Shown here piece after piece: positions 8,071 through 28,747 of a stretch of 64,000 bases of DNA (within the stretch, counting starts at the first letter, position 1; each line of letters starts with the position of its first letter). The notes beneath the pieces are model-generated. The model did not search any database. It saw only the letters and a program-made list of their open reading frames with translations, and had not been told where the DNA came from. The translations under genes and the position numbers were made by a program. Source of the DNA: Acidaminococcus sp. (GTDB lineage: Bacteria > Bacillota > Negativicutes > Acidaminococcales > Acidaminococcaceae); contig JAKVOM010000001.1 of NCBI GenBank assembly GCA_022482815.1, positions 1,240,001 through 1,304,000 of the forward strand, written 5' to 3'.

Positions 8071-8375
8071 AAAATGTCACCTCCACATAGTTCTTAAAAA
8101 AAACGAGAGCAAAACTAAAAATTATCAATTTGAATTATAATAAAACGTTCTATACAATAAAGTCAAGGGGTAGGGGTCAGAGGTAGAATATAATTTTTTT
8201 GATTAGTCAGAGTTTTATATTTTATCTTTGAGCTTGTATATTTTAATTATATATTTACTTCGAGTCGGTATGTTGACAATTTATTAGAAAATTTTAACTT
8301 TTTTGCTTATTTTAAGCGCTGTCTAGTTTTGATAAAAATGCTTAAAAATTTATTTTGAAGAAAGAAGGAAACAAA
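8071..8375. promoter_or_regulatory. Divergent lysR / catabolic-island promoter region
   Basis: AT-rich 305-bp spacer. Its lysR-proximal 95 bp are duplicated at 5635-5726. TTGACA at 8273-8278 is a good -35 for the dehydrogenase, but no good -10 lies 17 bp on, consistent with an activator-dependent promoter. No binding site can be assigned with confidence. Confidence 0.5.
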
Positions 8376-9335
8376 ATGGGGTTTAAAGTTCTGATTCCGG
8401 AAGATATTACCGCGGCGGGTAAAGACTGTTTGAAGAGTTTAGGGTATACAGTCGAAGTAATGTCTAATCCAACCGAAGATAAGATTTGTGAGGCAGTAAA
8501 AGACTGCGATGCCATATTGGCAAGGAACTTTCCGTATACACGCAAAATTATGGAAGCGGGGAAGAAGTTGAAAGTTATTGCTCGTTATGGTGTAGGAACG
8601 GATAAAATTGATTTGCAGGCAGCAACAGAGTTAGGAATCCAGATTACGAACGCTCCTACTGCTAATACAAATGCGGTGGCTGAGCATGTAATTGCCCTTC
8701 TGCTGGCGTGTGCCGATCATATTCTTTATCAGGACGCTCAGACGAGAGCGGGGAATTTTAAATCTCGCGACATAACAAAGAGCTTGGAAATAAAGGGACG
8801 AGTGTTGGGATTAATCGGTTGTGGACGGATTGGACAGAGCGTTGCTGAAAAAGCCAGTAAGGGATTTGGAATGAAAGTGATCGGTTATGATGCTTTTATT
8901 CCCGAAGATAAATGGCCTAAGACAATCGAAAGAAGAGAAAATATGGAAGACTTGATCAGGGAAGCTGATGTAATTTCACTGCATGTCCCTAGAACCAAGG
9001 ATACCATGAATATGATTAATAAAGATAACATGAAGTTGATGAAGAAAACTGCTATTTTACTGAATTGCGCAAGAGGCGGAGTCGTTAACGAAGCTGATCT
9101 GTATGAGACCTTAAAAAACAAAGAGATTTTTGCTGCCGGAATTGATGTATTTGCTACTGAACCGGCTAGTAAGGATAATCCTTTGTTTACATTGGATAAC
9201 ATTACCGTAAGCCCGCATAATGCGGCTCTCTCGGTAGAAGCTATGGATCAAATGGGAATGGATGCGGCCCATGGTATTGATGATGTGCTTCACGGTCGGA
9301 AACCAAAGTACCCCGTCAATAAATTGGATAAATAA
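8376..9335 (+). CDS. D-2-hydroxyacid dehydrogenase (NAD)
   Basis: A 319-residue member of the D-isomer 2-hydroxyacid dehydrogenase family (SerA/LdhA/GyaR group), interconverting a 2-hydroxy acid and a 2-oxo acid. Seen are RYGVGTDKIDL, the NAD loop GLIGCGRIG, the catalytic Arg in NCARGGVVNE, the Glu in DVFATEP and the His in SPHNAAL. It lacks the ACT or ASB domains of long SerA proteins, so serine synthesis is not implied. The ATG at 8376 has AGAAGG upstream; an earlier TTG does not. It is the first gene of the island, just upstream of korD, so it may feed 2-oxo acid to the ferredoxin oxidoreductase. Confidence 0.9.
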   Translation: MGFKVLIPEDITAAGKDCLKSLGYTVEVMSNPTEDKICEAVKDCDAILARNFPYTRKIMEAGKKLKVIARYGVGTDKIDLQAATELGIQITNAPTANTNAVAEHVIALLLACADHILYQDAQTRAGNFKSRDITKSLEIKGRVLGLIGCGRIGQSVAEKASKGFGMKVIGYDAFIPEDKWPKTIERRENMEDLIREADVISLHVPRTKDTMNMINKDNMKLMKKTAILLNCARGGVVNEADLYETLKNKEIFAAGIDVFATEPASKDNPLFTLDNITVSPHNAALSVEAMDQMGMDAAHGIDDVLHGRKPKYPVNKLDK

Positions 9336-9414
9336 GTCAGAAATGGAGTTTTCTTTTTGCGATTGATGCTAATTTTTGTTGAAGATGTACAGTTTTAAGA
9401 AGAGAGGGTTGGAT

Positions 9415-9612
9415 ATGGGTAAAGAAATTAATATTAAGATCAACAGCAAGTTTTGTAAGCAGTGTGGTATCTGCTCAGCGCTTTGTCCTAAGCAGGTCCT
9501 TGAACAAGAAGTTGGTAAGGTTCCCGTAGTAGCTCACATTGAAAACTGCATAGGCTGCAAGCTCTGCGCGATGCGTTGCCCTGATTTTGCAATCGAAGTG
9601 GAGGTCAAGTAA
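9415..9612 (+). CDS. korD: 2-oxoacid:ferredoxin oxidoreductase delta subunit (2[4Fe-4S])
   Basis: A 65-residue ferredoxin-like subunit with two clusters, CKQCGICSALCPKQVL and CIGCKLCAMRCPDFAI, each CxxCxxCxxxCP. It carries electrons from the TPP-dependent active site to free ferredoxin. The ATG follows AGAGAGGG, and the stop abuts the start of korA. The order D-A-B-C is that of four-subunit 2-oxoglutarate or 2-oxoisovalerate oxidoreductases. Confidence 0.93.
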   Translation: MGKEINIKINSKFCKQCGICSALCPKQVLEQEVGKVPVVAHIENCIGCKLCAMRCPDFAIEVEVK

Positions 9613-10761
9613 ATGGGAAAGACAGAGAAAAGATTTATGGAAGGTAATGACGCCATTGTAGCAGGAGCTATCGCTGCTGGTGCAAGATTTTTTGCCGGGT
9701 ATCCGATTTCTCCCAGTTCAGAGGTTGCGAAGGGAGCTGCTAGAGAGCTTCCTAAGCACGGCGGCATTTATATTCAGATGGAAGATGAAATCAGTTCTAT
9801 GGCTGCCCTTTTAGGAGCCTCCTTAGCAGGTAAGAAAGCATTTACCGCGACGAGCGGCCCTGGTATTTCTCTGATGTCCGAAAACCTGGGCCTGGGTATT
9901 ATGTCCGAGCTTCCTTGTGTACTTTATGATGTACAGCGCAGTGGCCCGTCTACCGGCGCTGCTACCAAACCGGCTCAGGGCGACCTGATGCAGGCAAGAT
10001 ACGGAACTCACGGTGATCACAGCATTATCGCCCTGGCTCCTTCTTCTGTACAAGATTGCTATGACCTTTCCATCACTGCTTTTAATTTGGCTGAAAAATA
10101 TCGTACGCCGGTTATCTTCCTGGCTGATGAAGTTATCGGCCATTTGCGTGAAACGGTTGTGCTCCGCGAACCGGAACCTGGGGAAATTATCAATCGCAAA
10201 GCACCGGCTCCTGGTACGACTCAGAGTGATTTCAGACCCTACAATTATGAAGGCACCGAAGTTGCTCCTATGGTCGCGGTTGGTGACAGAAATTTATTGA
10301 TGAGAACAACCGGTTCTACTCACGATGAAAAGGGTGAATTCAGACCGACACCGGAAAATATTAATCGGGTTACTCATTTCCTGACGGATAAGATTGAAAA
10401 ACATGCTGATGAAATAGATATTACCCGGGAATATAAAACGGAAGATGCCGATGTTATTATTATCTCCTCTGGTTGTTCCGTACGCAGCTCTATGTCGGCT
10501 GTTGATGTGTTGAGAAGTGAAGGGATTAAAGCCGGCATGTTACAGCTCGTCACAGTATGGCCAATGCCGGAAAAGGCAATCCGTAAGGCCCTCAAGCAGG
10601 CTAAGACAGTCGTCGTAGCTGAATTAAATTTGGGACAGTTGGCCGGCGAAGTACGCAAATTCAATGATTATGGATGTCAGGTACTTCAGGCAAACCGTAC
10701 AGATGGTGTTTTGATCACACCTCAGCAGATTGTAGATGCCTACAAGGGAGGTAAAAAATAA
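9613..10761 (+). CDS. korA: 2-oxoacid:ferredoxin oxidoreductase alpha subunit
   Basis: A 382-residue alpha subunit holding the pyrimidine-binding and CoA-related domains. It opens with GNDAIVAGAIAAGARFFAGY followed by PISPSSE, and has ATSGPGISLMSENLG and DVQRSGPSTGAAT, all family hallmarks. Together with KorBCD it oxidatively decarboxylates a 2-oxo acid to acyl-CoA, CO2 and reduced ferredoxin. The substrate (2-oxoglutarate, a branched 2-oxo acid or another) cannot be read from these motifs. The stop overlaps the korB start by one base, indicating coupled translation. Confidence 0.93.
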   Translation: MGKTEKRFMEGNDAIVAGAIAAGARFFAGYPISPSSEVAKGAARELPKHGGIYIQMEDEISSMAALLGASLAGKKAFTATSGPGISLMSENLGLGIMSELPCVLYDVQRSGPSTGAATKPAQGDLMQARYGTHGDHSIIALAPSSVQDCYDLSITAFNLAEKYRTPVIFLADEVIGHLRETVVLREPEPGEIINRKAPAPGTTQSDFRPYNYEGTEVAPMVAVGDRNLLMRTTGSTHDEKGEFRPTPENINRVTHFLTDKIEKHADEIDITREYKTEDADVIIISSGCSVRSSMSAVDVLRSEGIKAGMLQLVTVWPMPEKAIRKALKQAKTVVVAELNLGQLAGEVRKFNDYGCQVLQANRTDGVLITPQQIVDAYKGGKK

Positions 10762-11576
10762 TGAAGACCTATAAGGATTACATGCTTTATAATAAACTGC
10801 CTCATACGTGGTGTGCGGGCTGCAGTCACGGTATTGTGCTCCAGTCCATTGCGTCGGTTCTGGCTGAATTTGGGTACGATAAGCATGATATTGCATTGGT
10901 AAGTGGTATTGGCTGCTTTGGCCGTGTTGATGACTACCTGGATATTAACTGTATGCATGTGACGCACGGGCGTGCTCTGGCTGCTGCTACCGGTGTCGCT
11001 CTTGGTAACCCTAAGCTGCACGTCCTGGTTACGATGGGTGATGGTGATGGTGCTACTATCGGCGGTAACCATTTGATTCATGCTGCAAGAAGAAACATCA
11101 ACGTTACAGCTATTGTATCGAATAACTACAATTACGGTCAGACCGGCGGCCAGTATTCTGCTACGACGCCGACTCATAGTATTACGGCCACTTCTCCCTA
11201 TGGTCATGTGGAACAAAATTTTGATCTGTGCAAGCTGGCAATAGCAGCCGGAGCTTCTTATGTCGGCAGAGCTACTGCTTACAATCCTGTACTGATGAGA
11301 AAGCTGATTAAAGAAGGTATGGAAGTCAAAGGGTTTTCTTTGATTGAAGTTATGTCCGCATGCCCGACTCACTATGGAAAATTCAATAAACTTGGCGAAG
11401 CTTCCCGTATGATGAAACTTATGAATGAACAAAGTGTGACGGTAGCTCAGGCTGCTAAGATGACTCCGGAAGAACTGAAAGGTAAGATCGTAGTTGGTTG
11501 CCTGAAGAATGAACCGCGCGACGATTATTATACGGAGTATGCTAAAATTATTGCTGCTCAGGAAGTAGAGGGATAA
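10761..11576 (+). CDS. korB: 2-oxoacid:ferredoxin oxidoreductase beta subunit (TPP-binding)
   Basis: A 271-residue beta subunit. The CAGCSHGIV motif near residue 19 and SGIGCFGRVDDY precede the thiamine diphosphate motif VTMGDGDGATIGGNHLIHA, with NYNYGQTGGQYS completing metal binding. This is the catalytic half of the Kor complex. It shares single-base overlaps with both korA and korC, so the subunits are made in a coupled way. Confidence 0.94.
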   Translation: MKTYKDYMLYNKLPHTWCAGCSHGIVLQSIASVLAEFGYDKHDIALVSGIGCFGRVDDYLDINCMHVTHGRALAAATGVALGNPKLHVLVTMGDGDGATIGGNHLIHAARRNINVTAIVSNNYNYGQTGGQYSATTPTHSITATSPYGHVEQNFDLCKLAIAAGASYVGRATAYNPVLMRKLIKEGMEVKGFSLIEVMSACPTHYGKFNKLGEASRMMKLMNEQSVTVAQAAKMTPEELKGKIVVGCLKNEPRDDYYTEYAKIIAAQEVEG

Positions 11577-12109
11577 TGATGAAAAAAGAAATCGTATTGA
11601 GTGGTGTCGGCGGTCAAGGGGTTGTTTCCATCGGTCAGGTGATGGGTATCGCTGCTTCTCTTTTTGAGGATAAATTAAATGCAACCATGTCCGCTTCTTA
11701 TGGTTCGGAAGCAAGAGGCACTTTTACAAAGACGGACGTAATTCTTAGTGATGGTGCCATTGGATATCCTAATATTGAAAAGCCCGATATTATTCTTTGC
11801 CTGGCGCAGGTTGCTTATGATCGCTATGTAGATAAGTTTGACGATGATACCTTAGTTTTTTATGATTCCGAACTAGTTAAAAAGGCTGAAAACGCTAAAG
11901 GAAAGCACATTGGGTTCCCTTATAGAGACAAAGCAATTGCACTGGGTAGTATTCAGAGTGCAAACTTTATCGCCTTGGGTACCATTGTTAAGGAAACGAA
12001 GCTGTTGAAACCTGAAGGAATTATGAAAGCTATTGAAAATTGGTTTGCCGGCAAGAATAAGGTGATTGCCTCTAACCAGAAAGCTTTTGAAGCAGGGCTG
12101 AAACTGTAA
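11576..12109 (+). CDS. korC: 2-oxoacid:ferredoxin oxidoreductase gamma subunit
   Basis: A 177-residue gamma subunit beginning LSGVGGQGVVSIGQVMG, the glycine-rich signature of this domain, and containing SYGSEARGTFTKTDVI. It completes the KorDABC complex. Two adjacent ATGs (11576, 11579) are possible starts; the first overlaps the korB stop. The dehydratase gene follows after 35 bp. Confidence 0.93.
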   Translation: MMKKEIVLSGVGGQGVVSIGQVMGIAASLFEDKLNATMSASYGSEARGTFTKTDVILSDGAIGYPNIEKPDIILCLAQVAYDRYVDKFDDDTLVFYDSELVKKAENAKGKHIGFPYRDKAIALGSIQSANFIALGTIVKETKLLKPEGIMKAIENWFAGKNKVIASNQKAFEAGLKL

Positions 12110-12144
12110 CGCTTTATCCTTTCCTTTAAAAGGAGATGAAATCC

Positions 12145-13836
12145 GTGGGCGATGAAAAAATGTTTTATAAAAATTACCGCAGCGGAATTTTAGTAAATGG
12201 CAGTGAAAGAAGCGGCCATCGCACATTGCTTTATAGCATGGGATTAGATGATCAGGATTTGCGCAAACCTATCATTGGGATTGCTAATTCTTTCAGCGAA
12301 CTTGTACCCGGTCATATCCACTTGCGTGAACTGGCTGCTTCAGTTCGTGAGGGCATTTTAGAGGCCGGAGGTATTCCGCGCGAGTTTGGGACTATTGCTA
12401 TTTGTGATGGTCTGTGTCAGGGTCATAGTGGAATGCGGTATTCCCTTCCCAGTCGGGACATTATCGCTGATTCGGTGGAGGCTGTTGTTCAGGGGCATCA
12501 GCTCGATGCAGTTGTCCTTATGTGTGCTTGCGATAAGATTGTTCCGGGGATGATCATGGCTGCAGCCCGGATTGATATTCCTGCCATCATAGTAACCGGT
12601 GGGCCGATGCTCCCGGGACATCGTGATGGCGATGATAACTTTGTCCAATGCAATATCAGGGAATGCGTCGGGGAGTATCAAATCGGAAAGATAAGCTATG
12701 AGAAACTCAAGGAGCTAGAGCTTGCTACAGCGCCCACCATTGGTTCTTGTGGAATGATGGGTACGGCCAATACAATGAGCTGCCTGGCAGAAGTGCTTGG
12801 TTTGACCTTGCCTCGTATGGGTACCAGCCCTGCTGTTTCGGCTGAGAAAAGGCGCTTAGCCAGAGAGTCGGGACGGCGTATTGTTGAGATGGTAGAGGAA
12901 CAGCTGAATGCACGTAAGATTTTGACCAAGTCGGCTCTTTTAAATGCGGTTAAGGCTGTTATGGCATTGGGTGCTTCGACGAATTCGGTGCTGCATTTGA
13001 TGGCTATCGCTCATGAAGCTGGTATCGATCTGGATTTGAAAGATTTTGACAGGATGAGTGAAGAGATTCCGTATCTTTGCAATTTAAGACCATCAGGAGC
13101 TTATGCAATGGCGGAACTTCATAAGAACGGAGGTATTCCTGCCGTACTCAAAGCGATTCAGGACAAAATTGACGATTCGGCTATCACGGTGACAGGACAT
13201 ACCGTTAAGGAAATTTTAGCGGAGCAACCACTTGTAGAAAATGACGTGATTTATCCGAGAAGTGCCCCGAAAAATAAAAAGGGCGGAATTGCCATTCTGC
13301 ACGGTAATTTAGCACCCGATGGAGCTGTTATTAAAGCTAGCGGAGTAAAGCCGTCTATGATGAAATTTAGCGGCAAGGCACGCGTATTTAACAGCATGGA
13401 GGAATCTATTGCCGCTCTTGAAGCTAATCAGGTTCATGCAGGAGAGGTAATAGTCCTTCGGTATGAGGGCCCTAAAGGTGGTCCCGGCATGCGTGAGATG
13501 TTTCTTGTGACAGCTCTTCTTGTTGGGCGCGGGATGGATGAAAGTACGGCGCTGATCACGGATGGACGATTCTCCGGCTCCACGAGGGGGCCTTGCGTCG
13601 GGCATATTTCCCCTGAAGCGGCTGCAGGCGGTCCTATCGGGCTTGTAGAAGATGGGGATATTATCCACATTGACATTCCAAATCGGACGTTGACGCTTGA
13701 AGTATCTGATGAAGAATTGGAAAAACGGAGAAAGAACTTTAAGCCGCTGATTAAACCATCTACCCCTCTTTTGAGAAAATATTCTTCTTTGGTATCGTCA
13801 GCGGATAAAGGAGCGATTCTGGAACCGAAGGAATAA
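12145..13836 (+). CDS. IlvD/Edd-family dehydratase
   Basis: A 563-residue iron-sulfur dehydratase of the dihydroxy-acid/phosphogluconate/aldonate dehydratase family. Cluster cysteines are seen in [29 protein letters not shown] and [12 protein letters not shown], and the C-terminal [15 protein letters not shown] is typical. Classical IlvD works in valine/isoleucine synthesis, but no ilvB, ilvC or leu genes are near. Embedded in a catabolic operon with a UxaA dehydratase, it is more likely to dehydrate an aldonic or related hydroxy acid to a 2-oxo-3-deoxy acid. The GTG at 12145 is preferred because AAAAGGAGA ends 9 bp before it; the ATG at 12136 overlaps that site. Confidence 0.85.
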
Positions 13837-14139: not shown

Positions 14140-15459
14140 ATGCTGGAAAAGTACCGTAATAAAGTAAAGTCTCCTGCCGAAGCAGCCAAGGCTATTAAGA
14201 GCGGAGACTGGGTGGATTTTGGCTTTGGCAGCGGTTTCCCGGAACTCATGGATGCTGCCCTTGCCGCACGCAAGGATGAGCTGCATGATGTTAAAATTCG
14301 CGGCGGTCTGGTGTACCGTCCTGCCATCCAGGTTGTGGAATGCGATCCTGAGCAGAAGAGTTTCGAATATTTCAGCTGGCATCTTGGTGCCGCTGAACGG
14401 AAGTACTATACGGCCGGTCACATCCATTTTGTACCGATGATGCTGCGTCTGCTCCCTCAGATGTACCGTGAGTACCTGCATGTTGACGTTGCCTGCATTC
14501 CTGTTTCAAAACCGGATGAAAACGGGTACTGCGGGCTGGGACTTGCCAACTATTGCTGGAAGACTATTATGAAGAACGCCAAAACGGTCATCTTTGAAAT
14601 TAATGAACATATGCCGATGCTGCAGGGCGTAGATGGTTCACATCGTGTTTCCCTGGACGATGCCGATATTATCGTTGAAGGCGAACACGGTCCGCTGGCG
14701 ACCAACAATTATCGGACACCTTCCGAGGCAGATCTTAAAATTGCTGAAAATGTCGTTGCGGAGATCCCTGATGGTGCTACCCTTTCCCTCGGTGTCGGGA
14801 CAATTCCCTTTACCATCGCAGAAATCCTGGCAAAGTCTGACAAAACAGATCTTGGATGCCATACAGGTACCATCAGTGATGCGTTCCTGATGCTCTATAA
14901 GGCCGGTAAACTGACGAATAAGAAGAAAGAGCTCCGTACAGGGCTCTCTGATTGGAACCTCGTCAGCGGCTCCCAGGAGCTGTATGACTGGCTGCAGGCA
15001 GAACCGCAGCTCTTCTATCCGGCTGATCTGGATTTCATCCACAATCCACGGAATATGGAACAGATTTCTAATTTCATCAGTATCAATGGCGGTGTGCAGC
15101 TTGATTTGATGGGACAAGAGAATGCCGAGTCCGTCGGTACGCGCCAGCTTTCCGGCGTGGGCGGTCAGCTTGACTTTTTGGAAGGGGCCTTCCTTTCTCC
15201 GGGAGGGGCAGGCTATATCTGCATCAACTCTTCCCGCAAAGATAAAAAAGGCGAACTGCACTCCAATATTCTGGCAGCTATTCCGAGTGGTTCTGCTATT
15301 TCGGGTCCACGGGCCCTGATCCAGAATGTGGCTACGGAATACGGTATTGCTCACCTGACGGGCCTTTCCCTTAAGGAACGCGCCTATGCTATGATCAGTG
15401 TGGCACATCCGGCTTTCAGGGATGAACTAAAGGCGTATGCGGATGCCACTTTTAAGTAA
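14140..15459 (+). CDS. Acetyl-CoA hydrolase/CoA-transferase family protein
   Basis: A 439-residue member of the family that includes 4-hydroxybutyrate and butyryl-CoA:acetate CoA-transferases. Family segments seen are CIPVSKPDENGYCGLG, LSLGVGTIPFTIAEIL, NFISINGGVQLDL and the C-terminal SGVGGQLDFLEGAF. In the relatives I recall, the thioester-forming glutamate sits in a HTEMxSDG motif; here the same place reads HTGTISDA, with Gly243. If the alignment holds, this protein lacks the usual nucleophile. The ATG at 14140 has GAGGAGA 9 bp upstream; 14122 does not. It may process the acyl-CoA made by Kor. Confidence 0.85.
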   Translation: MLEKYRNKVKSPAEAAKAIKSGDWVDFGFGSGFPELMDAALAARKDELHDVKIRGGLVYRPAIQVVECDPEQKSFEYFSWHLGAAERKYYTAGHIHFVPMMLRLLPQMYREYLHVDVACIPVSKPDENGYCGLGLANYCWKTIMKNAKTVIFEINEHMPMLQGVDGSHRVSLDDADIIVEGEHGPLATNNYRTPSEADLKIAENVVAEIPDGATLSLGVGTIPFTIAEILAKSDKTDLGCHTGTISDAFLMLYKAGKLTNKKKELRTGLSDWNLVSGSQELYDWLQAEPQLFYPADLDFIHNPRNMEQISNFISINGGVQLDLMGQENAESVGTRQLSGVGGQLDFLEGAFLSPGGAGYICINSSRKDKKGELHSNILAAIPSGSAISGPRALIQNVATEYGIAHLTGLSLKERAYAMISVAHPAFRDELKAYADATFK

Positions 15460-15507
15460 TTGAGTGCAGCAGGTTTGCGAGACCCTGAGAATGGGGAGGT
15501 TATGACT

Positions 15508-16287
15508 ATGGAATTAGGTTTGAACGGAAAAGTCGTTGTCATAACGGGAGGTGGCAGCGGTATTGGTAAAGCTGCTGCGCTGGAGTTCCTTCGTGAGGGA
15601 TGTAAAGTCGCTGTTTGTGGACGTTCTCTTGCAAAATTAGAGAGTGCGCAGAAAGAGTTTCGTGAAAAAGGGTTTGACTTGATGATCCAGGTGGCAGACG
15701 TCACGGATTATTCTGCGCTGGAAGCATTAGCAGACAATGTGGAAGCAAAGTATGGACGGATTGATGTTTGGGTTAATAATGCTGGAGCTAATCAAATTAA
15801 GAGTTTGATGGATTATGATGTGGAAGAATTTCGTCATATGACTGATTTGATTTTAGTGTCTACGTTTTCCGGAAGTAAGATAGCCGCATTGCATATGAAA
15901 AAAAATAAAAAAGGCGTCATTCTGAATGCGTCCTCTTTTTCGGCTATTATTCCTAATGCCGGACGGGCTCCCTATAGTGCTTGCAAGGCTGCTGTATCTT
16001 CTTTGACAAGAACGTTTGCCGCCGAGCTTGCTGCAGATCATATTCGTGTCCTTGCCTACGTACCTGGAATGATAGCAACAGAAATCTCCAAAGCGAATAT
16101 TGAAAAAAATGGGGAACGTCTGATGAGTAACATTCCTATGCAGCGCTTTGGTGTACCGGAAGATTTGGCAAAGGTAATTGTCTTCTTGGCATCGGATTGT
16201 GCTTCTTATATGAACGGTGTCAATGTTGAAGTCACTGGTGCCAAGTACTGCGTACAGAATCCGTTATATGCGTATGGAAAAGGCTGA
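15508..16287 (+). CDS. Short-chain dehydrogenase/reductase
   Basis: A 259-residue classical SDR. The NAD(P) loop ITGGGSGIG is near residue 13, NNAGAN near residue 89, and the catalytic Ser and Tyr-x3-Lys lie in NASSFSAI and YSACKAAV. It probably oxidises or reduces a hydroxyl of the island substrate. GGGGAGG is 8 bp before the ATG at 15508; the ATG at 15502 is too close to that site. The gene lies 48 bp after the CoA-transferase-like gene. Confidence 0.9.
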   Translation: MELGLNGKVVVITGGGSGIGKAAALEFLREGCKVAVCGRSLAKLESAQKEFREKGFDLMIQVADVTDYSALEALADNVEAKYGRIDVWVNNAGANQIKSLMDYDVEEFRHMTDLILVSTFSGSKIAALHMKKNKKGVILNASSFSAIIPNAGRAPYSACKAAVSSLTRTFAAELAADHIRVLAYVPGMIATEISKANIEKNGERLMSNIPMQRFGVPEDLAKVIVFLASDCASYMNGVNVEVTGAKYCVQNPLYAYGKG

Positions 16288-16434: not shown

Positions 16435-17946
16435 ATGAATCAGTATGTTGTGAAACTCAACTCGGAAGATAACGTTGCTATTGCAATTAAGGATATTCCA
16501 TCCGGAACAGAAGTATCGGAGGGTCTGGTTGCTAAAGACATGATTCCCCAAGCCCACAAGATAGCTCTGAAGGATATCAAAAAAGGTGGAGAAATCCGCC
16601 GGTATAACACCGTGATTGGTTATGCCAAGGAGGATATTCAGAAGGGACGATGGATCAGCCAGTTTATGGTCAGTCTTCCTAAAGCTCCCGGCTTGGATGA
16701 TATGGAATATGGTACACACATTGTGAAGGATTTGCCGGAGCCACCCGTTAAAAATTGGTGGGGATATCCGAACCCTAAGGGAGGGCCGGCCGGAACGAGA
16801 AATGTCCTGGGAATTATGACGACCGTTCAATGTGCCGTCGGAGTAGGTAAAGTGGCCGTTGAGCGGATAAAGAAAGAGTTGTTGCCTCAATATCCCAATG
16901 TGGATGATGTTGTTCTAATTAGTCATGAATACGGATGCGGTGTTGCAATCAACGCGCCAGAGGCGAAAATCCCTATCCGGATTTTACAAAATCTGGTCCA
17001 CCAGCCTAATTTTGGCGGACAGGTCATGGTTCTCTCTCTCGGTTGTGAAAAGCTTACTGTTGAAAGACTGCTTCCTCCGGAAGAAGTTAAACCGGAAAAC
17101 ATTGTCGTCTTGCAAGACCAGCACGGCTTTGAAAAAATGGTTGATGCAATTATGGAGATGGCAGAAAAGAAACTGGCTATTCTCAACCAAAGAAAACGTG
17201 TGGAATTGCCTTTAAGTGATCTTGTAGTAGGGCTTCAATGCGGTGGCAGTGATGCCTTTTCGGGAGTCACTTGTAATCCTAGCGCAGGTTATGCCTCAGA
17301 TATGCTGGTTAAAGGCGGGGCTACCGTGATGTTTTCTGAAGTAACGGAAGCGCGCGACGGAATCCATTTGTTAGCAGCAAGATGTATCAATCGAGAGACA
17401 CGAGATAAGATGGCTGCTGAAGTGAAATGGTATGATGAATACCTTAAAGAAGGTGCAGTAGATAGAGATGCTAATCCTACCCCGGGAAATAAAAAAGGCG
17501 GCTTAGCCAATATTGTCGAAAAATCAATGGGTTCTATTGCTAAATCGGGCACAGCGCCTATTTCGGAAGTGCTTGCTCCCGGAGAACTTCCATCTCAGCA
17601 TGGTCTGATATTTGCCGTAACGCCAGCTAATGATTTTGCTTGTGGAACTTGTCAGATGGCGAGCGGTATAGGAGTCCATGTGTTTATGACCGGGAGAGGA
17701 TCTACGTACGGCCTGCCTATTGTTCCTGTGATTAAGCTTTGCTCTCGTTCAGATTTGTGGGAAAAATGGCCGGACTTGATTGATCTCAATGCCGGACCTA
17801 TTGCCTTGGGAAAATCCACGATTGCCGAGATAGGGACTCAGCTTTTCAAGCTCATTATCGATGTGGCCAGCGGGAAGAAATCTTTAGCTGAGCAACACAA
17901 AATTTACAATGATCTTTGTGTTTTTAATCCGGCTCCTCTTACGTAA
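16435..17946 (+). CDS. UxaA-family dehydratase (altronate/galactarate dehydratase-like)
   Basis: A 503-residue protein with an N-terminal SAF domain (residues 1-75, AIAIKDIPSGTEV) and a C-terminal UxaA/GarD domain (GGSDAFSGVTCNPSAG, FACGTCQMASGIGVHVFMTG, SRSDLWEKWPDLIDLNAG). The length matches UxaA (about 495) and GarD (about 523), so both halves are fused as in sugar-acid dehydratases rather than split as in sulfolactate lyase SuyAB. The reaction would be dehydration of a polyhydroxy acid. Exact substrate unknown; no uronate isomerase or tagaturonate reductase is nearby. GAAGGGGGCAG precedes the ATG. Confidence 0.87.
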   Translation: MNQYVVKLNSEDNVAIAIKDIPSGTEVSEGLVAKDMIPQAHKIALKDIKKGGEIRRYNTVIGYAKEDIQKGRWISQFMVSLPKAPGLDDMEYGTHIVKDLPEPPVKNWWGYPNPKGGPAGTRNVLGIMTTVQCAVGVGKVAVERIKKELLPQYPNVDDVVLISHEYGCGVAINAPEAKIPIRILQNLVHQPNFGGQVMVLSLGCEKLTVERLLPPEEVKPENIVVLQDQHGFEKMVDAIMEMAEKKLAILNQRKRVELPLSDLVVGLQCGGSDAFSGVTCNPSAGYASDMLVKGGATVMFSEVTEARDGIHLLAARCINRETRDKMAAEVKWYDEYLKEGAVDRDANPTPGNKKGGLANIVEKSMGSIAKSGTAPISEVLAPGELPSQHGLIFAVTPANDFACGTCQMASGIGVHVFMTGRGSTYGLPIVPVIKLCSRSDLWEKWPDLIDLNAGPIALGKSTIAEIGTQLFKLIIDVASGKKSLAEQHKIYNDLCVFNPAPLT

Positions 17947-18031
17947 AAGTAGTTGCCTCGGAATTTCCTTTTGGTTAATTTAAGGATTCTTGTTAAATGA
18001 CAAAGGGCATGCAAGGATAGGAGTGATTGCA

Positions 18032-19072
18032 TTGTATTATTCTGTTCAAAAGATTAGAGAATATTGTGAAAAAGTGTGGGAAAAAGCGGGACTTTCCAAA
18101 GAAGATGCAGCAACTTGCGTTGATGTGTTGCTGGCGGCAGATATGCGTGGGCAGCGTACTCATGGTGTCACCCATATGAAGGATTACTGCGAGCGCCTGA
18201 AGAAAGGAACTGCAAATTCAGGCAGTCAGATGGAAATGAAACAGACTTCTCCAACTTCGCTGGTTGTTGATGCAAAGCATGGGGTTGGAATGGTGGTTGC
18301 TCCTCGTATTATGAAAAAATGCATCGAAGTAGCCAAGGGCTCTGGTGCATGTTTTGCTTCGGTACATAATGGCTGTCATTATGGCTTAGGTGCTTATTAT
18401 CCAATGATGGCACTGAAAGAAAATATGATTGCCTTCAGTTTTGCAAATACGCCGCCTTTGGTTGCACCATTTGGAGGAGCAGATCCTCTCTTGGGAACAA
18501 ATCCTGTTTCAATAGCAATTCCGGCTGGTAAACATCCGGATTTAGTGTTAGACATTGCAACGAGTATTGTCGCCAAAGGAAGGATTTCTCTGGCCTTGAA
18601 AGAAGGTCAAAAAATTCCTAAGGGATGGGCACTGGATAAGTACGGTGCTGATACAACTGATCCGGCAGCCGCCAATGTTGGTGCACTGCTTCCTTTCGGA
18701 GCTCATAAGGGGTATGGGATTATGTTGATCGTTTCCCTTCTTTCGTTTGCTCTTAGTGGTGCTGATATGGACATCAACCTTCCAAGGTTTTTTGAAAATA
18801 CTGATGCTCTGAGTAATATTGGGTATTTTATGGGTTGCATTGATATTGCGAAATATTGTAAGGTTGAGGATTTTAAAAAACGAGTCGATGCTATGTTTGA
18901 TCTTCTGAAGAATTGTCGCCCATCTGTTGGGTCGAAGGGTGTGTTGATTCCAGGTGAGATTGAATACGTCAAAACCCAAAAGGCGATGAAGGAAGGCATT
19001 GATCTTTCCGAAGCGACCCTTCGTGATTTTAAGGAGATGTCGGCAGAATATGGCGTCCCTTATGATTTTTGA
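18032..19072 (+). CDS. Ldh2/malate dehydrogenase-family oxidoreductase
   Basis: A 346-residue NAD(P)-dependent dehydrogenase of the malate/L-lactate/sulfolactate/ureidoglycolate family. Seen are the catalytic-type His in RGQRTHGVTHM, HNGCHYGLGAYY, the GTNPVSIAIP loop, DIATSIVAKGRI and FGAHKGYGIMLIVSLLS. It likely interconverts a hydroxy acid and its 2-oxo form. There is no good ATG: TTG at 18032 follows ATAGGAG by 8 bp and matches the usual family start. The neighbours (UxaA-like dehydratase upstream, Tct transporter downstream) fit a role early in hydroxy-acid catabolism. Confidence 0.87.
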   Translation: MYYSVQKIREYCEKVWEKAGLSKEDAATCVDVLLAADMRGQRTHGVTHMKDYCERLKKGTANSGSQMEMKQTSPTSLVVDAKHGVGMVVAPRIMKKCIEVAKGSGACFASVHNGCHYGLGAYYPMMALKENMIAFSFANTPPLVAPFGGADPLLGTNPVSIAIPAGKHPDLVLDIATSIVAKGRISLALKEGQKIPKGWALDKYGADTTDPAAANVGALLPFGAHKGYGIMLIVSLLSFALSGADMDINLPRFFENTDALSNIGYFMGCIDIAKYCKVEDFKKRVDAMFDLLKNCRPSVGSKGVLIPGEIEYVKTQKAMKEGIDLSEATLRDFKEMSAEYGVPYDF

Positions 19073-19197: not shown

Positions 19198-20208
19198 ATG
19201 AAACACAAGGTTTTAACTACTATGCTGGCATTAGCAGTCTTGGCAATGGGAAGTCTAGGATGCGGCGGAAATAACAATAAGCAAACCGCTTCCAAGAGCG
19301 GCGATGTAAAGTGGCCAACAAAACCGGTTCAGATTATTGTTCCTTTCTCCGCCGGTGGCGATACGGATTACAATGCCCGTATTATGGCTAAGTATCTGGA
19401 AAAGAAATTAGGTAAACCGTTTACGGTTACCAACGTCGTTGGTGGCGGCGGATCCATTGCAGATAACAGAGTTAAAAATGCTAATCCTGATGGATACACA
19501 ATTCTGGTTAACCATGTAACGCTTAACTTGTCCACCGCTTCCAAAGTTATTGATTTTAGCTTTAAGGATTATCAAATGGGTGGCGTGTTTGCTCAGCAGG
19601 CGAGCGATGTTGTTCTCGTGAGAGGAGATTCTCCTTGGAAGAGTGTTAAAGATTTGATTGAAGATTCCAAGAAGAATCCTAATAAATATAAGATCGCTGC
19701 TAATACGGGTACTTCTTCCCACTATGTGGCTATTTCTCTGCAAAATGCAGGGGCACAGCTCAACGTAGTCGACTCTGGTGGATCTGCTGACCGTATTGTT
19801 GCCCTCCTGGGTGGCCACGTCGATGTAATTCCGGCAGCATATCCTGGTGTAAGAGACTATATTAAGACTGGTAAATTTAAAGTACTGGCAACTTGTGCCG
19901 ATAAACGTTTGGATGCGCTGCCTGATGTGCCTACTCTGAAGGAAAGTGGTGTAGATTGCGTTTATTTCTATAACTACACGTTCTTCTTCCCGAAAGGAAC
20001 CGATCCGAAGATTGCTGAAAAGCTGAACGCAGCGGTTAAGGACATTGTAGCGAACGACAAGTCCTACGCACAAGAAATCGAAAAGGCATATATGCAGAAG
20101 CCTTTCTGCATGAGCATTGCAGATTCTGAAAAGTTCTGGCAGTCCAGTTATGATTCGATTATGAAGTTTGCTGATAAATTACAGGGGAAGGTTCAAAAGC
20201 AAAAATAA
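19198..20208 (+). CDS. tctC: Tripartite tricarboxylate transporter binding protein (TctC/Bug family)
   Basis: A 336-residue lipoprotein. The signal MKHKVLTTMLALAVLAMG ends in a lipobox SLGC, so the mature protein starts at Cys22. The Bug-family signature WPTKPVQIIVPFSAGGDTD begins the domain, followed by VVGGGGSIADNRV and PDGYTILVNH. It captures an anionic substrate outside the membrane for TctAB. Bug proteins bind carboxylates such as citrate, glutamate or sugar acids, and the ligand cannot be deduced here. AAAGGAGGAAAT precedes the start. Confidence 0.93.
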   Translation: MKHKVLTTMLALAVLAMGSLGCGGNNNKQTASKSGDVKWPTKPVQIIVPFSAGGDTDYNARIMAKYLEKKLGKPFTVTNVVGGGGSIADNRVKNANPDGYTILVNHVTLNLSTASKVIDFSFKDYQMGGVFAQQASDVVLVRGDSPWKSVKDLIEDSKKNPNKYKIAANTGTSSHYVAISLQNAGAQLNVVDSGGSADRIVALLGGHVDVIPAAYPGVRDYIKTGKFKVLATCADKRLDALPDVPTLKESGVDCVYFYNYTFFFPKGTDPKIAEKLNAAVKDIVANDKSYAQEIEKAYMQKPFCMSIADSEKFWQSSYDSIMKFADKLQGKVQKQK

Positions 20209-20236: not shown

Positions 20237-20821
20237 ATGAGCGACAAGAGAAAGGAAATTTTGTCATCAGCTTTCTTTGCAGTTCTTTCTGTACTTTATT
20301 TTTGCGGGACTTTTTCCATCAGAAGTTATAATGCCTTTGGTGTGACGGTATTGTCATCTGCCAGTGTTCCTAGAGCACTGGCAGTGGCACTACTGGTGCT
20401 CAGTCTACTCCATATTTATTCTGTGATTAGTATGGATAAAAAAGCTAAAAATGCTAAAAATGCCGCTAAGGTGGAAACTTCAGAGGCAAAGACTGAGGAA
20501 AAGAAAGTCCACGGTGTAGATATTGAAAAAGAACTTGCGCAAGCTGAGAAAAACGAAAATGCAGGTAAAATCAACAATAAAGATGTTGTTTTAACGGTTG
20601 TATTTTTGATCCTGTATGTGATAGGTCTTACTTATTTGGGATTTATTATTTCTACTTTTATTTATATTGTGGCTCAATCGGAATTGATGACGTTAAAGGC
20701 GAAAAGAAAACAGGGCCTCATCAAGAGCATTATTTTAGCTGCAGTTGCTACAGCTGCCATCTATTTCCTGTTTAATAATTTGCTTTCACTCTTACTTCCG
20801 GTGGGCGTATTTGGAATTTAG
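20237..20821 (+). CDS. tctB: Tripartite tricarboxylate transporter small subunit
   Basis: A 194-residue membrane protein with four predicted helices: SAFFAVLSVLYFCGTF, ALAVALLVLSLLHIYSVI, then a charged Lys/Glu-rich cytoplasmic loop of about 55 residues, then VVLTVVFLILYVIGLTYLG and a C-terminal pair. This is the TctB topology, with an unusually long charged loop. AAAAGGAG precedes the ATG. It lies between tctC and tctA. Confidence 0.9.
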   Translation: MSDKRKEILSSAFFAVLSVLYFCGTFSIRSYNAFGVTVLSSASVPRALAVALLVLSLLHIYSVISMDKKAKNAKNAAKVETSEAKTEEKKVHGVDIEKELAQAEKNENAGKINNKDVVLTVVFLILYVIGLTYLGFIISTFIYIVAQSELMTLKAKRKQGLIKSIILAAVATAAIYFLFNNLLSLLLPVGVFGI

Positions 20822-20838
20822 ATTGGAGGGGACAACAG

Positions 20839-22335
20839 ATGACTGAGATGTTAATTCAAGGTGTTACAGCTGTTATATCCAATCCAATTTGTATCGCCTT
20901 GATTTTTTTCTGTACTGGGGTAGGCATCGTATTTGGCGCAATTCCTGGTTTAACGGCAACGATTGCAATCGCCATGATGTTGCCGATCACTTTTTCGATG
21001 GAAACTACGATGGGAATATCTACTCTGGTAGCCCTGTACATCGGGGGCATTTCGGGAGGACTGGTTTCTGCAATTTTGTTGAATATGCCGGGAACTCCTT
21101 CTTCCATTGCCACGTGTTTTGATGGACGTCCTATGGCTTTGAAGGGTGAAGGTGGTAAAGCCTTGGGTGTCGGAGTGGTATTTTCGTTTATTGGAACTGC
21201 TCTTGGTATTGCTGCCATGATATTCATTGCTCCTCCTCTGGCTGCAATCACCATTAAGTTTGGGGCATGGGAATATTTTACGGTAACGCTGTTTTCTCTG
21301 ACATTGATTGCTAGTTTGGCTGGCAAAGATATTGTCAAGGGCATCATTACTGCTATTCTTGGTATGATGTTTGCGTCTGTGGGGTTAGCACCCATTGATG
21401 GTGTCGAGCGGTTTACCTTTGGAAGTGTAGAACTTTCGTCAGGGTTTGCCATGTTGTCTGTCCTTGTGGGCCTTTATGCTATTTCTGAGGTTATGAAAAC
21501 TGCCGGTACGATGCAATCGGGTGAAGACTATGTAGCGACTAAATTCGAGCTAAAGGGATTTGGTTTTTCTTTAGCTGAATTTTTCAGCCAGATTAAGAAC
21601 GCAATCAGGTCTGCTCTTATTGGTATCGGGATTGGGATTCTTCCTGGTATTGGCGGAGGAACAAGTAATATTGTTTCCTATTCTATCGCTAAGAATCAGT
21701 CTAAGTATCCTGAAAAATTTGGGACAGGTATCATCGATGGTATAGTTGCTTCTGAAACAGCAAACAATGCGACCATCGGCGGTGCAATGATTCCGCTTTT
21801 AACCTTGGGCATTCCTGGTGATACGGCCACTGCTATGCTGCTGGGCGGCTTTATGATTCACGGAATTCAACCCGGTCCGCTGCTTTTTGAATCTCATGGA
21901 GATGTCGTCTATGGCGTATTTACAGCTATGATTCTTTCGTCGTTCTTCATGTTGATTTGGTCCTTTGGAGCCATGCGGCTGTTCATTAGAATCTTGAAGG
22001 TTCCCAAGAACTATCTGTTCCCTATCATCGTGGTGCTTTGCTCTGTAGGCTCTTTTGCTTTGGATAACCGAGTTTTTGATGCAGCTTCGATCATTCTTTT
22101 TGGTGTGATTGGCTACACATTAGAAAAACTGAAGTATCCGCTTCCTCCCTTTATTCTGGGATTTGTGCTTGGCGGCACTTTTGAACAGAATTTGCGTAGA
22201 GGGCTGCAGATCGGAAATGGGGACATATTCGACTTATTTAATTATCCCATTGCTGTCGTCTTCCTGGTGGCAACGATTATTTCCGTTTTCTTCTCCATCA
22301 GACAATTTAGAAAAAATGCGAAAGTTGCCAATTGA
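20839..22335 (+). CDS. tctA: Tripartite tricarboxylate transporter large permease
   Basis: A 498-residue permease with about 12 hydrophobic segments and TctA signatures: GAIPGLTATIAIAMMLPIT near residue 33, LNMPGTPSSIATCFDGRP, and GIGILPGIGGGTSNIVSY with ETANNATIGGAMIP in the second half. It forms the secondary-transport pore with TctB and is fed by TctC. GGAGGGG precedes the ATG. A terminator follows, closing the transport operon. Confidence 0.95.
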   Translation: MTEMLIQGVTAVISNPICIALIFFCTGVGIVFGAIPGLTATIAIAMMLPITFSMETTMGISTLVALYIGGISGGLVSAILLNMPGTPSSIATCFDGRPMALKGEGGKALGVGVVFSFIGTALGIAAMIFIAPPLAAITIKFGAWEYFTVTLFSLTLIASLAGKDIVKGIITAILGMMFASVGLAPIDGVERFTFGSVELSSGFAMLSVLVGLYAISEVMKTAGTMQSGEDYVATKFELKGFGFSLAEFFSQIKNAIRSALIGIGIGILPGIGGGTSNIVSYSIAKNQSKYPEKFGTGIIDGIVASETANNATIGGAMIPLLTLGIPGDTATAMLLGGFMIHGIQPGPLLFESHGDVVYGVFTAMILSSFFMLIWSFGAMRLFIRILKVPKNYLFPIIVVLCSVGSFALDNRVFDAASIILFGVIGYTLEKLKYPLPPFILGFVLGGTFEQNLRRGLQIGNGDIFDLFNYPIAVVFLVATIISVFFSIRQFRKNAKVAN

Positions 22336-22410: not shown

Positions 22411-22656
22411 AGAAGATTGCTGTATTTAATTACATAAGGTGGAAGCTTGCCTTCTTGCATAAATAAACTGAACTGATTCATATATGCCTTACATGAATTA
22501 CTACCATTTTAAATAAGAGCTGCTAAGTATGGAATTTTTAATTGTACTGCTGCAGAGAATTTATGGCATTATATTATACTGAGGGTCGTTAATTCATTTA
22601 AAGGAAAAGACAATATGATACTGTAAGTGGGTTTGCAGATTAAAAAGGTGTTTACT

Positions 22657-23010
22657 ATGAACAATTTAGTAAAATATCGTTTAAAACATATTGGAATTAA
22701 CTGTAAGAACGAAAAAGAAGCAAGAAAAATGGTTACTTTGCTTTGCTCGCTTTTCAATATGGAACCAGGTCCGGAGAATGAGTCTCACATTTTTGTATCT
22801 AACTGTTTTGAAGTTATGAAGCATGATAAGATTGGAAAATATGGACATATAGCACTTCAGACAGACGATGTTGAGCTTGCAATGAAGGATTTAGCGGCAA
22901 AAGGAATTCATTTTCAAGAGGATACAATTCGCCGTGATCGGGAAGGAAAGATTATCTTTATTTATCTCAAAGAAGATATTGGTGGGTTTTCTTTTCATTT
23001 GACAATATAA
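22657..23010 (+). CDS. VOC (glyoxalase-fold) protein, KDPG-aldolase-tail-like
   Basis: A 117-residue single-domain vicinal-oxygen-chelate protein. LKHIGINCKNEKEARK, NCFEVMKHDKIGKYGHIAL and YLKEDIGGFSFHL match, from memory, the C-terminal VOC domain that some Clostridia carry fused to KDPG/KHG aldolase. Here it stands alone. If the resemblance is right, it supports a 2-oxo-3-deoxy acid as an intermediate of the island. The start follows AAAGGTG. The catalytic role of this domain is not established. Confidence 0.7.
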   Translation: MNNLVKYRLKHIGINCKNEKEARKMVTLLCSLFNMEPGPENESHIFVSNCFEVMKHDKIGKYGHIALQTDDVELAMKDLAAKGIHFQEDTIRRDREGKIIFIYLKEDIGGFSFHLTI

Positions 23011-26613: not shown

Positions 26614-27861
26614 ATGATCTACGTTGGAATTGATGTATCTAAGAGCAAACACGACTGCTGCATCCTTGATTCTGAGCATAAGGACGACTACGAGGAATTC
26701 ACGATCCCCAATACCCGGAATGGTTATGACCACCTGCTAAAGCGAATTTTTTCCTACAATCAATCGGTAAAAAATATAAAAGCAGGGCTGGAGGCCACCG
26801 GAGAGTATAGTGTGAACATCACCAGATTCCTGTTGAACAATGGCCTAGCAACCTGCGTTCTCAATCCTCTGCTGACGGATCAATACAGAAAGAGTCATAG
26901 CCTTCGCAAAACTAAAACCGATCGCATTGACGCACACTTCATTGCTTGCATACTTATGTCCGATTTAGACCTCAAGCCCTACGTACCCCAAGAATACCAC
27001 AATAAAGTCTTGAAGTCACTAACCAGGACTCGCTTTGGATGGGTTCATGAACGGTCTCTAAAAAAGCAAACCCTTACCCGTATAATTGATACTAGCTTTT
27101 CTGAACTTCCACAGTACATAAACCTGGATTCTGCTACCGCTCACGCTCTCCTTAAGGAGTATCCCACTCCCGAGAAAATGGCGAACGCAAATTTGAAACA
27201 CATGAAAGAAATTATCTACAAAACATCCAAAGGCAGGTTAAGTATGGATCTGGCTGAGCAGATTCGTAACGCTGCAAGGCATTCCGTAGGTCTGGGCAAA
27301 AGCGATATATCTACTGAAATTAATGTAGTGGAAACAATACACGATATTGAGGTAAAAAACGAACAAATTCAAAAAGTTGAGTCCAGAATTAAAAAACTGT
27401 TAGAGGAACGTAAAGAACCGTTACTTACAATCCCTGGGATTAGTATTGCTACAGGGTCCGCAATTTTAGGAGAAATTGGGGATTTCTCCAGATTTTCCTC
27501 CCCCGACAAGATACTGGCCTATGCCGGATTTGCGCCCTCTAAGAACCAGTCAGGCCGGCGGAGTGGAATAGGACCAAGTGCCCATATGGAGAAAAGAGGA
27601 TCACGATATCTACGTCATGCTCTCTTCAATGCGGCAAGATTCGTCTGCCAAAATGAACCAGCTTACAAAGAATATTTGGCAAAGAAATTAAGCGAAGGAA
27701 AACATTTCTATATAGCAATCTCTCACGTAGTTAAAAAGTTAGTACGTCTAATCTATGCACTTCAAACGAGAGGAATCCCATACAAAACACCTGCTCAATT
27801 AATGCTTCAAAGGCAGATAAATACTGGCTCCGATTCACAGGATTTTGCACTTGACATATGA
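26614..27861 (+). CDS. IS110-family transposase (DEDD recombinase)
   Basis: A 415-residue intact transposase. The RuvC-like N-terminal domain begins MIYVGIDVSKSKHD with Asp7, followed by Glu60 in AGLEATGEY and Asp103/Asp106 in KTDRIDAHFIA, which gives the DEDD set. A central coiled helix precedes the C-terminal Tnp domain with LLTIPGISIATGSAI and YAGFAPSKNQSGRRSG, where the catalytic serine is expected. GAGGAGG lies upstream. Nothing in the frame is broken, so the element may still be active. Confidence 0.95.
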   Translation: MIYVGIDVSKSKHDCCILDSEHKDDYEEFTIPNTRNGYDHLLKRIFSYNQSVKNIKAGLEATGEYSVNITRFLLNNGLATCVLNPLLTDQYRKSHSLRKTKTDRIDAHFIACILMSDLDLKPYVPQEYHNKVLKSLTRTRFGWVHERSLKKQTLTRIIDTSFSELPQYINLDSATAHALLKEYPTPEKMANANLKHMKEIIYKTSKGRLSMDLAEQIRNAARHSVGLGKSDISTEINVVETIHDIEVKNEQIQKVESRIKKLLEERKEPLLTIPGISIATGSAILGEIGDFSRFSSPDKILAYAGFAPSKNQSGRRSGIGPSAHMEKRGSRYLRHALFNAARFVCQNEPAYKEYLAKKLSEGKHFYIAISHVVKKLVRLIYALQTRGIPYKTPAQLMLQRQINTGSDSQDFALDI

Positions 27862-28045
27862 TAGTTAGTCTCCTTCCTAAAGGACGGAGGTGGCAGAGAA
27901 ATTCCAAACCTTACGGTTTGGCGTAACTTAGGCGACGTCGAAGAGGGTCTCCTTGGTCATTTTTCTTCCACAGGCGGGCTGCGGACTGATATGCTCCCCT
28001 TAAGACGGAGAAAAAAATTATGTCAATGTTTTAAGGAGGCATGTC

Positions 28046-28747
28046 ATGGTAAAGAACAATAATAAATTCATCTCTCCTGAGATTAAACTCAAAGCTGTCA
28101 AAGATATCCTTGAACACAAATCCAACACCTATCAGGTTGCCAAAAAGCTTGGTATCCGGCGGCAGAACGTTTCTCTTTGGGTAATGAATTACAAGAACGA
28201 GGGCGCAGAAGCCTTTTCCCCGAAAAAGGGAAAGAAAACCTATCCTGTTTCCCTTATGGAAAATGCCGCTAAGGATTATCTGGATGGTAAAGGCAGCTAC
28301 ATTCAAATCTGTAAGAAATACAAAATCCGTTCCCCCAGGGTTCTTGCAGACTGGGTTAAGCATTATAATATTCATGGAGAACTAGATTCTTACGCTTATC
28401 AAGAGAGATGTGATAAATCCATGAAAGGTAAGGCAAGTACCCTTGAAGAACGCTGCAAAATCGTCAAGGAATGTCTGGAATCCAACCGTGATTACCGTTC
28501 TGTAGCCGAAAAATACGGTTATTCCTATCGTCAGGTCTACAACTGGGTTAAACGCTATGAAAAGGATGGGAATTCAGGGCTGGCCAACCATCAGGGCAGA
28601 CCCAAGAAGAAACCATTGGATCCTTCCCATAAGGAAACAAAAGATGAGGAACTGGTGCGCCTGAGACAAGAAGTCAAGGATCTCAAATTGGAGAATTTGC
28701 TTCTAAAAAAACTGGACGAGTTGACGAAAAGGAATCGCTTTCGTTGA
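28046..28747 (+). CDS. IS3-family transposase OrfA
   Basis: A 233-residue DNA-binding subunit with two or three helix-turn-helix repeats (for example YQVAKKLGIRRQNVSLW and YRSVAEKYGYSYRQVYNW) and a C-terminal leucine zipper VRLRQEVKDLKLENLLLKKL. This is the IS150 type. Its stop overlaps the orfB start in the tetranucleotide TTGA, so OrfB is made by re-initiation or by frameshifting. No A6G slippery run is seen. AAGGAGG precedes the start. Confidence 0.93.
   Translation: MVKNNNKFISPEIKLKAVKDILEHKSNTYQVAKKLGIRRQNVSLWVMNYKNEGAEAFSPKKGKKTYPVSLMENAAKDYLDGKGSYIQICKKYKIRSPRVLADWVKHYNIHGELDSYAYQERCDKSMKGKASTLEERCKIVKECLESNRDYRSVAEKYGYSYRQVYNWVKRYEKDGNSGLANHQGRPKKKPLDPSHKETKDEELVRLRQEVKDLKLENLLLKKLDELTKRNRFR

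Follow-up and report, generated by a model that had tools for sequence, protein, structure and literature searches.

Family I CoA-transferases are the textbook case of covalent glutamate catalysis. In citrate lyase alpha and malonate decarboxylase alpha, CoA is exchanged through a mixed anhydride, with no enzyme thioester.

In the family I enzyme AarC, the essential Glu294 is polarized and oriented by Asn347 (a number obtained by counting along the alignment), and the E294A variant is described as inactive (PMC4876117).

The nearest experimental analogue of the protein described here is ThnP, a Cat1 CoA-transferase in which G238 replaces the glutamate and which acts as an intramolecular CoA-transferase of anaerobic naphthalene degradation (PMC11659651). 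The tagged protein has a mass of 46.5 kDa, E269 is present and its locus tag adjoins that of ThnO. ThnP accepts no CoA from acetyl- or succinyl-CoA, and ThnP alone gave no reaction with its CoA esters (data not shown by the authors). The mechanism was left open between a shifted, distant Glu269 and an internal anhydride, and no intramolecular member of family I had been studied before, according to the same authors. As read from its name, the ThnP substrate is a substituted glutarate, with carboxyls three carbons apart. Another CoA-transferase family named in PMC11659651 carries out the same kind of reaction as the one proposed below, with an active-site Asp.

A family I protein with glycine at the catalytic column

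The window (the whole stretch of DNA that was analysed, 64,000 nucleotides) belongs to a genome placed in Acidaminococcus, since its close loci bear this genus name and genomes sharing their sequences are classed in the same genus. The protein of interest and its two key codons are as follows:

14140..15459, + strand: Glu-less Cat1/AbfT-type CoA-transferase, 439 aa; the frame is open from 14122
14866..14868, + strand: Gly243 codon, in the place of the catalytic Glu (AbfT Glu238 / AarC Glu294)
15040..15042, + strand: His301 codon; the residue stands where AarC has Asn347 (glutamate buttress, internal oxyanion hole)

By its domains and the predicted fold of the whole chain, this protein is a family I (Cat1/AbfT) CoA-transferase. 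Both AcetylCoA_hydro domains pass their cut-offs (PF02550, 77.0 bits; PF13336, 164.2 bits). The best NCBIfam match is TIGR03948, butyryl-CoA:acetate CoA-transferase, with 377.2 bits, below the curated cut-off of 674.8. The AF2 model (mean pLDDT 87.3, with residues 331-339 under 50) superimposes on AbfT (3gk7) over 428 residues with Z 48.3 and rmsd 1.9, and on 2oas with Z 49.2. The folds of citrate lyase alpha and malonate decarboxylase alpha score far under AbfT, at Z 22.5-25.2 (25.2 for 1xr4 and 23.6 for 5vit).

The preliminary description had claimed that the catalytic Glu is missing, and this was confirmed. The translation reads HTGTISDA at residues 241-248, and Gly243 falls on the Glu of HTE/HSE in all five phmmer alignments with solved relatives (3eh7, 3gk7, 9vag, 3d3u and 4n8h), so that it occupies the position of AbfT Glu238. 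The AarC-type paralogue of the same genome, L003, also has Glu in this column. Therefore, the Glu that forms the CoA thioester is not found at the family I column in the alignment, with Gly243 there instead.

The Asn that buttresses the Glu in AarC is likewise not found; in the alignment made by way of L003, AarC Asn347 corresponds to column 301, which is His in the window clade. Thus, both Glu294 and Asn347 of AarC (PMC4876117) are replaced within a shared family I fold. In comparison with AbfT and TIGR03948, the window protein keeps the fold and most motifs and differs in lacking the catalytic Glu, the Asn at 301 and the loop Gln. As the preliminary description also noted, NGGVQLDL and GGQLDF are both present. 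The Gly is not an isolated change: His301, Thr244 and Glu327 are peculiar or nearly peculiar to the clade, in which residue 216 is no longer the loop Gln.

Distribution, coupled residues and separate glycine lineages

A profile built from nine Gly proteins was run over 300 genomes of the class Negativicutes, and a second set of 397 genomes from the family of a Lachnospiraceae carrier was also searched, with the best four candidates per genome being scored. Among the 300, the Gly clade was found in nine, the window's own genome and the eight other Acidaminococcus drawn, at about 890-924 bits. The next match (473 bits) carried Glu, as did all 21 next loci fetched. In the Lachnospiraceae set, 13 of the 397 genomes carried it (505-849 bits); all 13 copies read CHTGTISDA, and Glu was read in 17/17 of the next-ranked loci fetched. 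Overall, CHTGT[I/L]SDA is kept in all nine of the Acidaminococcus drawn and in 14 genomes of the Lachnospiraceae type (these 13 and G301). One Lachnospiraceae-type copy, in G904, is split by a frame change.

A base error or a dying gene was ruled out, because none of the orthologues read, whether from Acidaminococcus or from Lachnospiraceae, departs from this Gly, and the motif thus persists in two groups of organisms; the earlier view that the gene is not decaying is thus supported. The same genome also encodes a Glu-bearing Cat1 paralogue (L002) besides L003. A tblastn search of plasmids gave 226 records, every one below 60% identity.

Further Glu-less Cat1 groups may exist among the lower-ranked matches of the genome searches. 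A further Glu-less Cat1 group was seen in a small class around G527 (L191-L193), with FFAMGID in place of the HTE motif and a Glu near +31 (TEILG). Seven open frames of 636-697 aa (L216, L217, L219, L221, L222, L223 and L226) have HTQ at the catalytic column and Asn at 301, and are probably fusion proteins.

The residue at column 301 changes together with the catalytic one. After thinning at 99% identity, 172 rows remained, of which 34 carry Gly, 131 Glu and seven Gln. Column 301 is His in 33 of the Gly rows and Gln in the other; it is Asn in 128, Tyr in two and Leu in one of the Glu rows, and Asn in all of the Gln rows. His301 is therefore present in 33/34 Gly proteins versus 0/138 others, and in 8/9 versus 0/62 after thinning at 70%. 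For these counts, near-copies were dropped, as were L003 (too divergent), fragments shorter than 330 residues (including the split G904 copy) and exact duplicates, and the FFAMGID group was kept out of the alignment. The Gly protein of L135 is the only one of the set with Gln, not His, at this column.

Other residues mark the window clade. Glu327 (within GQENAES) is found in all 22 of its rows and in 0 of the other 150; the clade also has Thr244 and Leu274, with Thr244 being common to ThnP-like proteins; and the loop Gln at 216 is replaced by Ser or Gly (Ser216 in the window protein). GGQ and TE(Y/F)G are kept in 23/23 clade rows and Asn316 in 21/23, the window protein being counted twice. A Glu at +31 occurs in nine of the 34 Gly rows, all from the other Gly lineage, and both Glu327 and the +31 Glu are missing from three Gly proteins (L116, L123 and L128).

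This other lineage comes from genomes drawn around a Syntrophaceae genome and is, by our reading, desulfobacterial (Desulfobacterota); its SH-aLRT support is 89 in a 121-row tree and 97 when ThnP-like rows are added. The Gly label requires two changes on the 121-row tree. Forcing all of the Gly rows together, with the trait columns masked, cost 121 log-likelihood units (p-AU 0.000169), and the same constraint with the ThnP-like rows added cost 117 units (p-AU 0.000169); these AU tests used quick trees and groups named after the first tree had been seen. A single Gly clade including the Desulfobacterota proteins was thus rejected. The Gly/His pair probably arose twice; formally, Gly could instead be ancestral, with Glu regained later in some branches.

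The ThnP-like proteins were found in a search of 389 genomes, where 30 loci were fetched: three read HTGTFSDG (L206, L211 and L214), 20 carried Glu and seven Gln. Fetched again with their surroundings as L228-L230, these three loci have His at column 301 and a 381-residue gene adjoining the Gly protein. In L229 and L230, the Gly is residue 238, the +31 Glu is residue 269 and the mass is about 46.7 kDa (a per-residue estimate); the best match of the L229 381-residue gene is glutaryl-CoA dehydrogenase (408 bits, cut-off 470). The three were taken as putative ThnP orthologues, with L229 and L230 matching the published description of ThnP in G238, E269, size and neighbour gene.

ThnP and the window protein share the Cat1 family and the Gly at the catalytic column, and the ThnP-like copies share with it HTGT and the His at the Asn347 column. 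In contrast, these copies keep the loop Gln and the Glu at +31, where the window protein has Ser216 and Leu274; they fall in a separate Gly clade, and ThnP differs from the window protein in pathway and probable substrate. As the window clade has Leu at +31, a role of Glu269 is not common to both lineages. The proposal of a different mechanism or substrate gains support from the conservation of the motif, the coupled second-site change and the intramolecular activity of a Gly238 relative (PMC11659651). The pairing suggests Gly plus His as a candidate two-residue signature of intramolecular CoA-transferases.

Gene neighbourhood and glutaconyl-CoA decarboxylase

The CoA-transferase lies within a run of genes on the same strand:

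8355..9335, + strand: D-2-hydroxyacid dehydrogenase, PGDH-like (below curated cut-offs)
9376..9612, + strand: small ferredoxin-like protein, a conserved module member (by eye, from its Cys pattern)
9613..10761, + strand: KorA, 2-oxoacid:acceptor oxidoreductase alpha
10761..11576, + strand: KorB, 2-oxoacid:acceptor oxidoreductase beta
11576..12109, + strand: KorC, 2-oxoacid:acceptor oxidoreductase gamma
12136..13836, + strand: IlvD/EDD-family dehydratase; the genome has three
15460..16287, + strand: short-chain dehydrogenase
16435..17946, + strand: galactarate dehydratase (GarD) type, 724.8 bits, just below the cut-off of 730.85
17990..19072, + strand: Ldh2-family dehydrogenase
19198..20208, + strand: TctC substrate-binding protein
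20237..22335, + strand: transporter subunits, probably TctB and TctA (assigned by eye on location and translated sequence)
22627..23010, + strand: VOC-type protein, weakly like methylmalonyl-CoA epimerase

A module of D-2-hydroxyacid dehydrogenase, ferredoxin-like protein, KorABC, IlvD, VOC protein and CoA-transferase recurs in L005, L006, L007 and L011, four of the eight Gly loci that were tested besides the window, and in L133, from the separate Gly lineage, KorABC stands directly before the Gly protein. This gene order supports the suggested link to an acyl-CoA made by Kor. The module dehydrogenases of the window and the other loci are 39-42% identical, and may not be one enzyme, compared with at least 62% for the remaining shared genes. 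GarD is downstream of the CoA-transferase in L006, L007 and the window, and L007 has a gntP-type permease (285 bits against a cut-off of 293) ahead of the module. The Glu-type loci L012-L018 gave no match to a window-operon gene besides the CoA-transferase (E 1e-10). A housekeeping role for the window IlvD was rejected, since the best-scoring of the three genomic IlvD-like genes lies elsewhere; the window copy passes the ilvD cut-off too.

The VOC gene has two weak NCBIfam matches, two weak PDB matches and no Pfam match. Four related Acidaminococcus loci have it between IlvD and the CoA-transferase, the window has it beyond the transporter, and its product is perhaps an epimerase-like partner of the Gly CoA-transferase. 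When 12 Lachnospiraceae stretches were compared with the reference genes, notable matches appeared in two, a transporter in L174 and the VOC protein in L177, with a weak LysR match in L170. The L177 VOC protein (L177:10271-10642) is encoded just upstream of the CoA-transferase and is 54% identical to the product of window 22627-23010. L174:3014-3973 encodes a KDPG-aldolase-like protein (by eye), a segment of which shows 37% identity to the VOC protein of the window. Elsewhere in the window, at 26614-29664, transposase-like frames were seen by eye in the translations, IS110-like at 26614-27861 and an IS3-like pair at 28046-29664.

Other Gly loci have different surroundings. In L010, a six-gene run precedes the Gly CoA-transferase on the same strand at a distance of about 0.4 kb, and comprises two CoA-transferase-like subunits, a carboxyltransferase-like alpha, an activase and two dehydratase-like subunits. 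The activase is above the TIGR00241 cut-off and the other five are below theirs; the run is an apparent gctA-gctB-gcdA-hgdC-hgdA-hgdB operon, named after the A. fermentans operon described in PMC3035267. These names are supported by the genome of the window, where a copy 71% identical to the decarboxylase gene (969394-971136) is closely followed by HGD-D dehydratase genes (972105-974563). L009 has a divergent GlcD-like dehydrogenase with EtfAB, and a glutamate symporter downstream.

The Gly gene of L008 follows an aldehyde dehydrogenase (best matches of acylating types, below cut-offs) and an Fe-alcohol dehydrogenase, and that of L004 is near a sulfopropanediol dehydratase (1472.7 bits, cut-off 1000); neither context gives an obvious C5 dicarboxylyl-CoA. 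The latter gene, L004:7455-9998 on an Acidaminococcus contig, encodes a glycyl radical enzyme of the (2S)-3-sulfopropanediol dehydratase (HpfG) type and is separated from the Gly CoA-transferase by a LysR-like gene, with a TRAP transporter and an Fe-ADH nearby. Judged from this gene set, sulfonate fermentation in Acidaminococcus is possible. At L135:428-3379, a Gly-type CoA-transferase comes directly after a methylmalonyl-CoA-decarboxylase-alpha-like carboxyltransferase.

Glutaconyl-CoA decarboxylase alpha (GcdA) co-occurs with the Gly clade. It is present in 9/9 Acidaminococcus, and true GcdA, with 63-100% identity to that of L010 over the main match, in 13 of 14 Lachnospiraceae carriers versus none of 40 non-carriers (Fisher p 1.3e-11, kinship ignored; the carriers are kin, and the counts are not independent). 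These non-carriers were the first listed: half of them (20) had no match at 1e-120 and the other 20 matched only at 403-462 bits; five of the latter had their motif read, and all had Glu. The best GcdA match among the 40 reached 28% (E 1.6e-29). A stop falls inside the GcdA match of G1075, G992, G747 and G904, and the match of G762 is partial.

In the 300 Negativicutes genomes, GcdA was found in 13, the nine Acidaminococcus and four others of the family, which are without the Gly protein (one of them, G243, is only 63% complete). No true GcdA was found in the carrier G301. The tie to GcdA is therefore neither necessary nor complete, and the Gly CoA-transferase looks like an accessory, not a fixed part, of the hydroxyglutarate pathway.

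Proposed reaction and its alternatives

From what was directly observed (the missing Glu, the His that goes with it, a Gly clade in each of two separate lineages, GcdA co-occurrence and gene order), we infer for the window enzyme an activity, a mechanism, a substrate and each of the pathway steps around it. We give an even chance to a substrate-assisted intramolecular CoA-transferase that moves CoA from one carboxyl of a C5 dicarboxylyl-CoA to the other, with 2-hydroxyglutaryl-CoA as the probable substrate. This family I enzyme would have abandoned the covalent glutamyl-CoA mechanism while retaining the GGQ and TE(Y/F)G motifs. Gly243 would make room, with the substrate's own second carboxylate filling the space of the Glu side chain and being oriented by His301 in place of Asn347. 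A cyclic anhydride would then arise by attack of this carboxylate on the thioester of the same molecule, with CoA rejoining at the other carbonyl, the net result being an intramolecular CoA shift.

The likely conversion would be from 2-hydroxyglutaryl-5-CoA to 2-hydroxyglutaryl-1-CoA. According to PMC8473912, the Hgd dehydratase acts by reduction of the carbonyl of the thioester, which gives way to the hydroxyl at C2; because it uses these two groups, CoA is needed, by our reading, on C1, where the carbonyl adjoins the C2 hydroxyl. In the aldarate route, GarD would yield 5-keto-4-deoxyglucarate and the IlvD homologue 2,5-dioxoadipate; Kor would convert this to 2-oxoglutaryl-5-CoA, as its action on an aldarate-derived 2-oxo acid would leave CoA on C5, and the 2-hydroxyacid dehydrogenase would give 2-hydroxyglutaryl-5-CoA. 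Some of the 5-isomer might also come from glutaconate CoA-transferase, which is a guess. The fuller proposal, that a second, separately evolved line with Glu-to-Gly and Asn-to-His changes is a 2-hydroxyglutaryl-CoA isomerase that brings aldarates via Kor into the hydroxyglutarate pathway with no acetyl-CoA spent, is tentative. In the open-access literature, no report was found of 2-hydroxyglutaryl-5-CoA or of a galactarate dehydratase in Acidaminococcus, and glutaconyl-1-CoA returned nothing but papers unrelated by title.

A relocated nucleophile is an unlikely alternative, in which the enzyme would still be a ping-pong CoA-transferase with Glu327 or His301 taking the acyl group or CoA. It fits the clade-wide, exclusive Glu327, the confinement of His301 to Gly proteins within the set and the +31 Glu of the other lineage. 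However, Glu327 is absent from that other lineage and, with L116, L123 and L128 having neither residue, no substitute Glu at 327 or +31 is common to the Gly proteins.

Distinctly less likely is an acyl-CoA hydrolase in which His301 activates water in the cavity vacated by Glu. A CtfAB E46D active-site mutant is named a hydrolase in the title of a PDB entry, so that minor alterations of the active site may lead to hydrolysis in this superfamily, and the adjoining Kor could supply a thioester for release. Against this, a thioester would be wasted in a fermentation operon, and ThnP alone gave no reaction with its CoA esters (PMC11659651). The non-classical hydrolase raised by the preliminary description thus found no positive evidence, with the nearest experimental analogue being a transferase.

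We consider it improbable that the protein is a non-catalytic CoA-ester binder or regulator: an essential residue is lost, as in the AarC variant called inactive (PMC4876117), and many Lachnospiraceae copies lie outside any evident operon, but the GGQ, TE(Y/F)G and Asn316 positions are kept and the change is coupled and parallels that of an active enzyme. Least probable of all is CoA exchange between separate molecules by way of an external mixed anhydride, with no thioester on the enzyme, in the style of citrate lyase alpha and malonate decarboxylase alpha, whose folds may be related but for which no lyase or acyl carrier partner is seen among the family-searched neighbours.

Under the intramolecular CoA-transferase reading, the window clade is a new, separate clade of a kind with one enzyme characterised in 2024; no mention of it was found in the open-access literature. 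The clade provides a natural second experiment, having Gly and His as in ThnP-like proteins in a separate clade without the +31 Glu, and it can for this reason help to discriminate a shifted Glu269 from an internal anhydride. The best family match here of such enzymes, for which the two residues are a candidate signature, is butyryl-CoA:acetate CoA-transferase. For the organisms themselves, the Gly CoA-transferase may be a possible missing step in the fermentation of glutamate and sugar acids in the gut.
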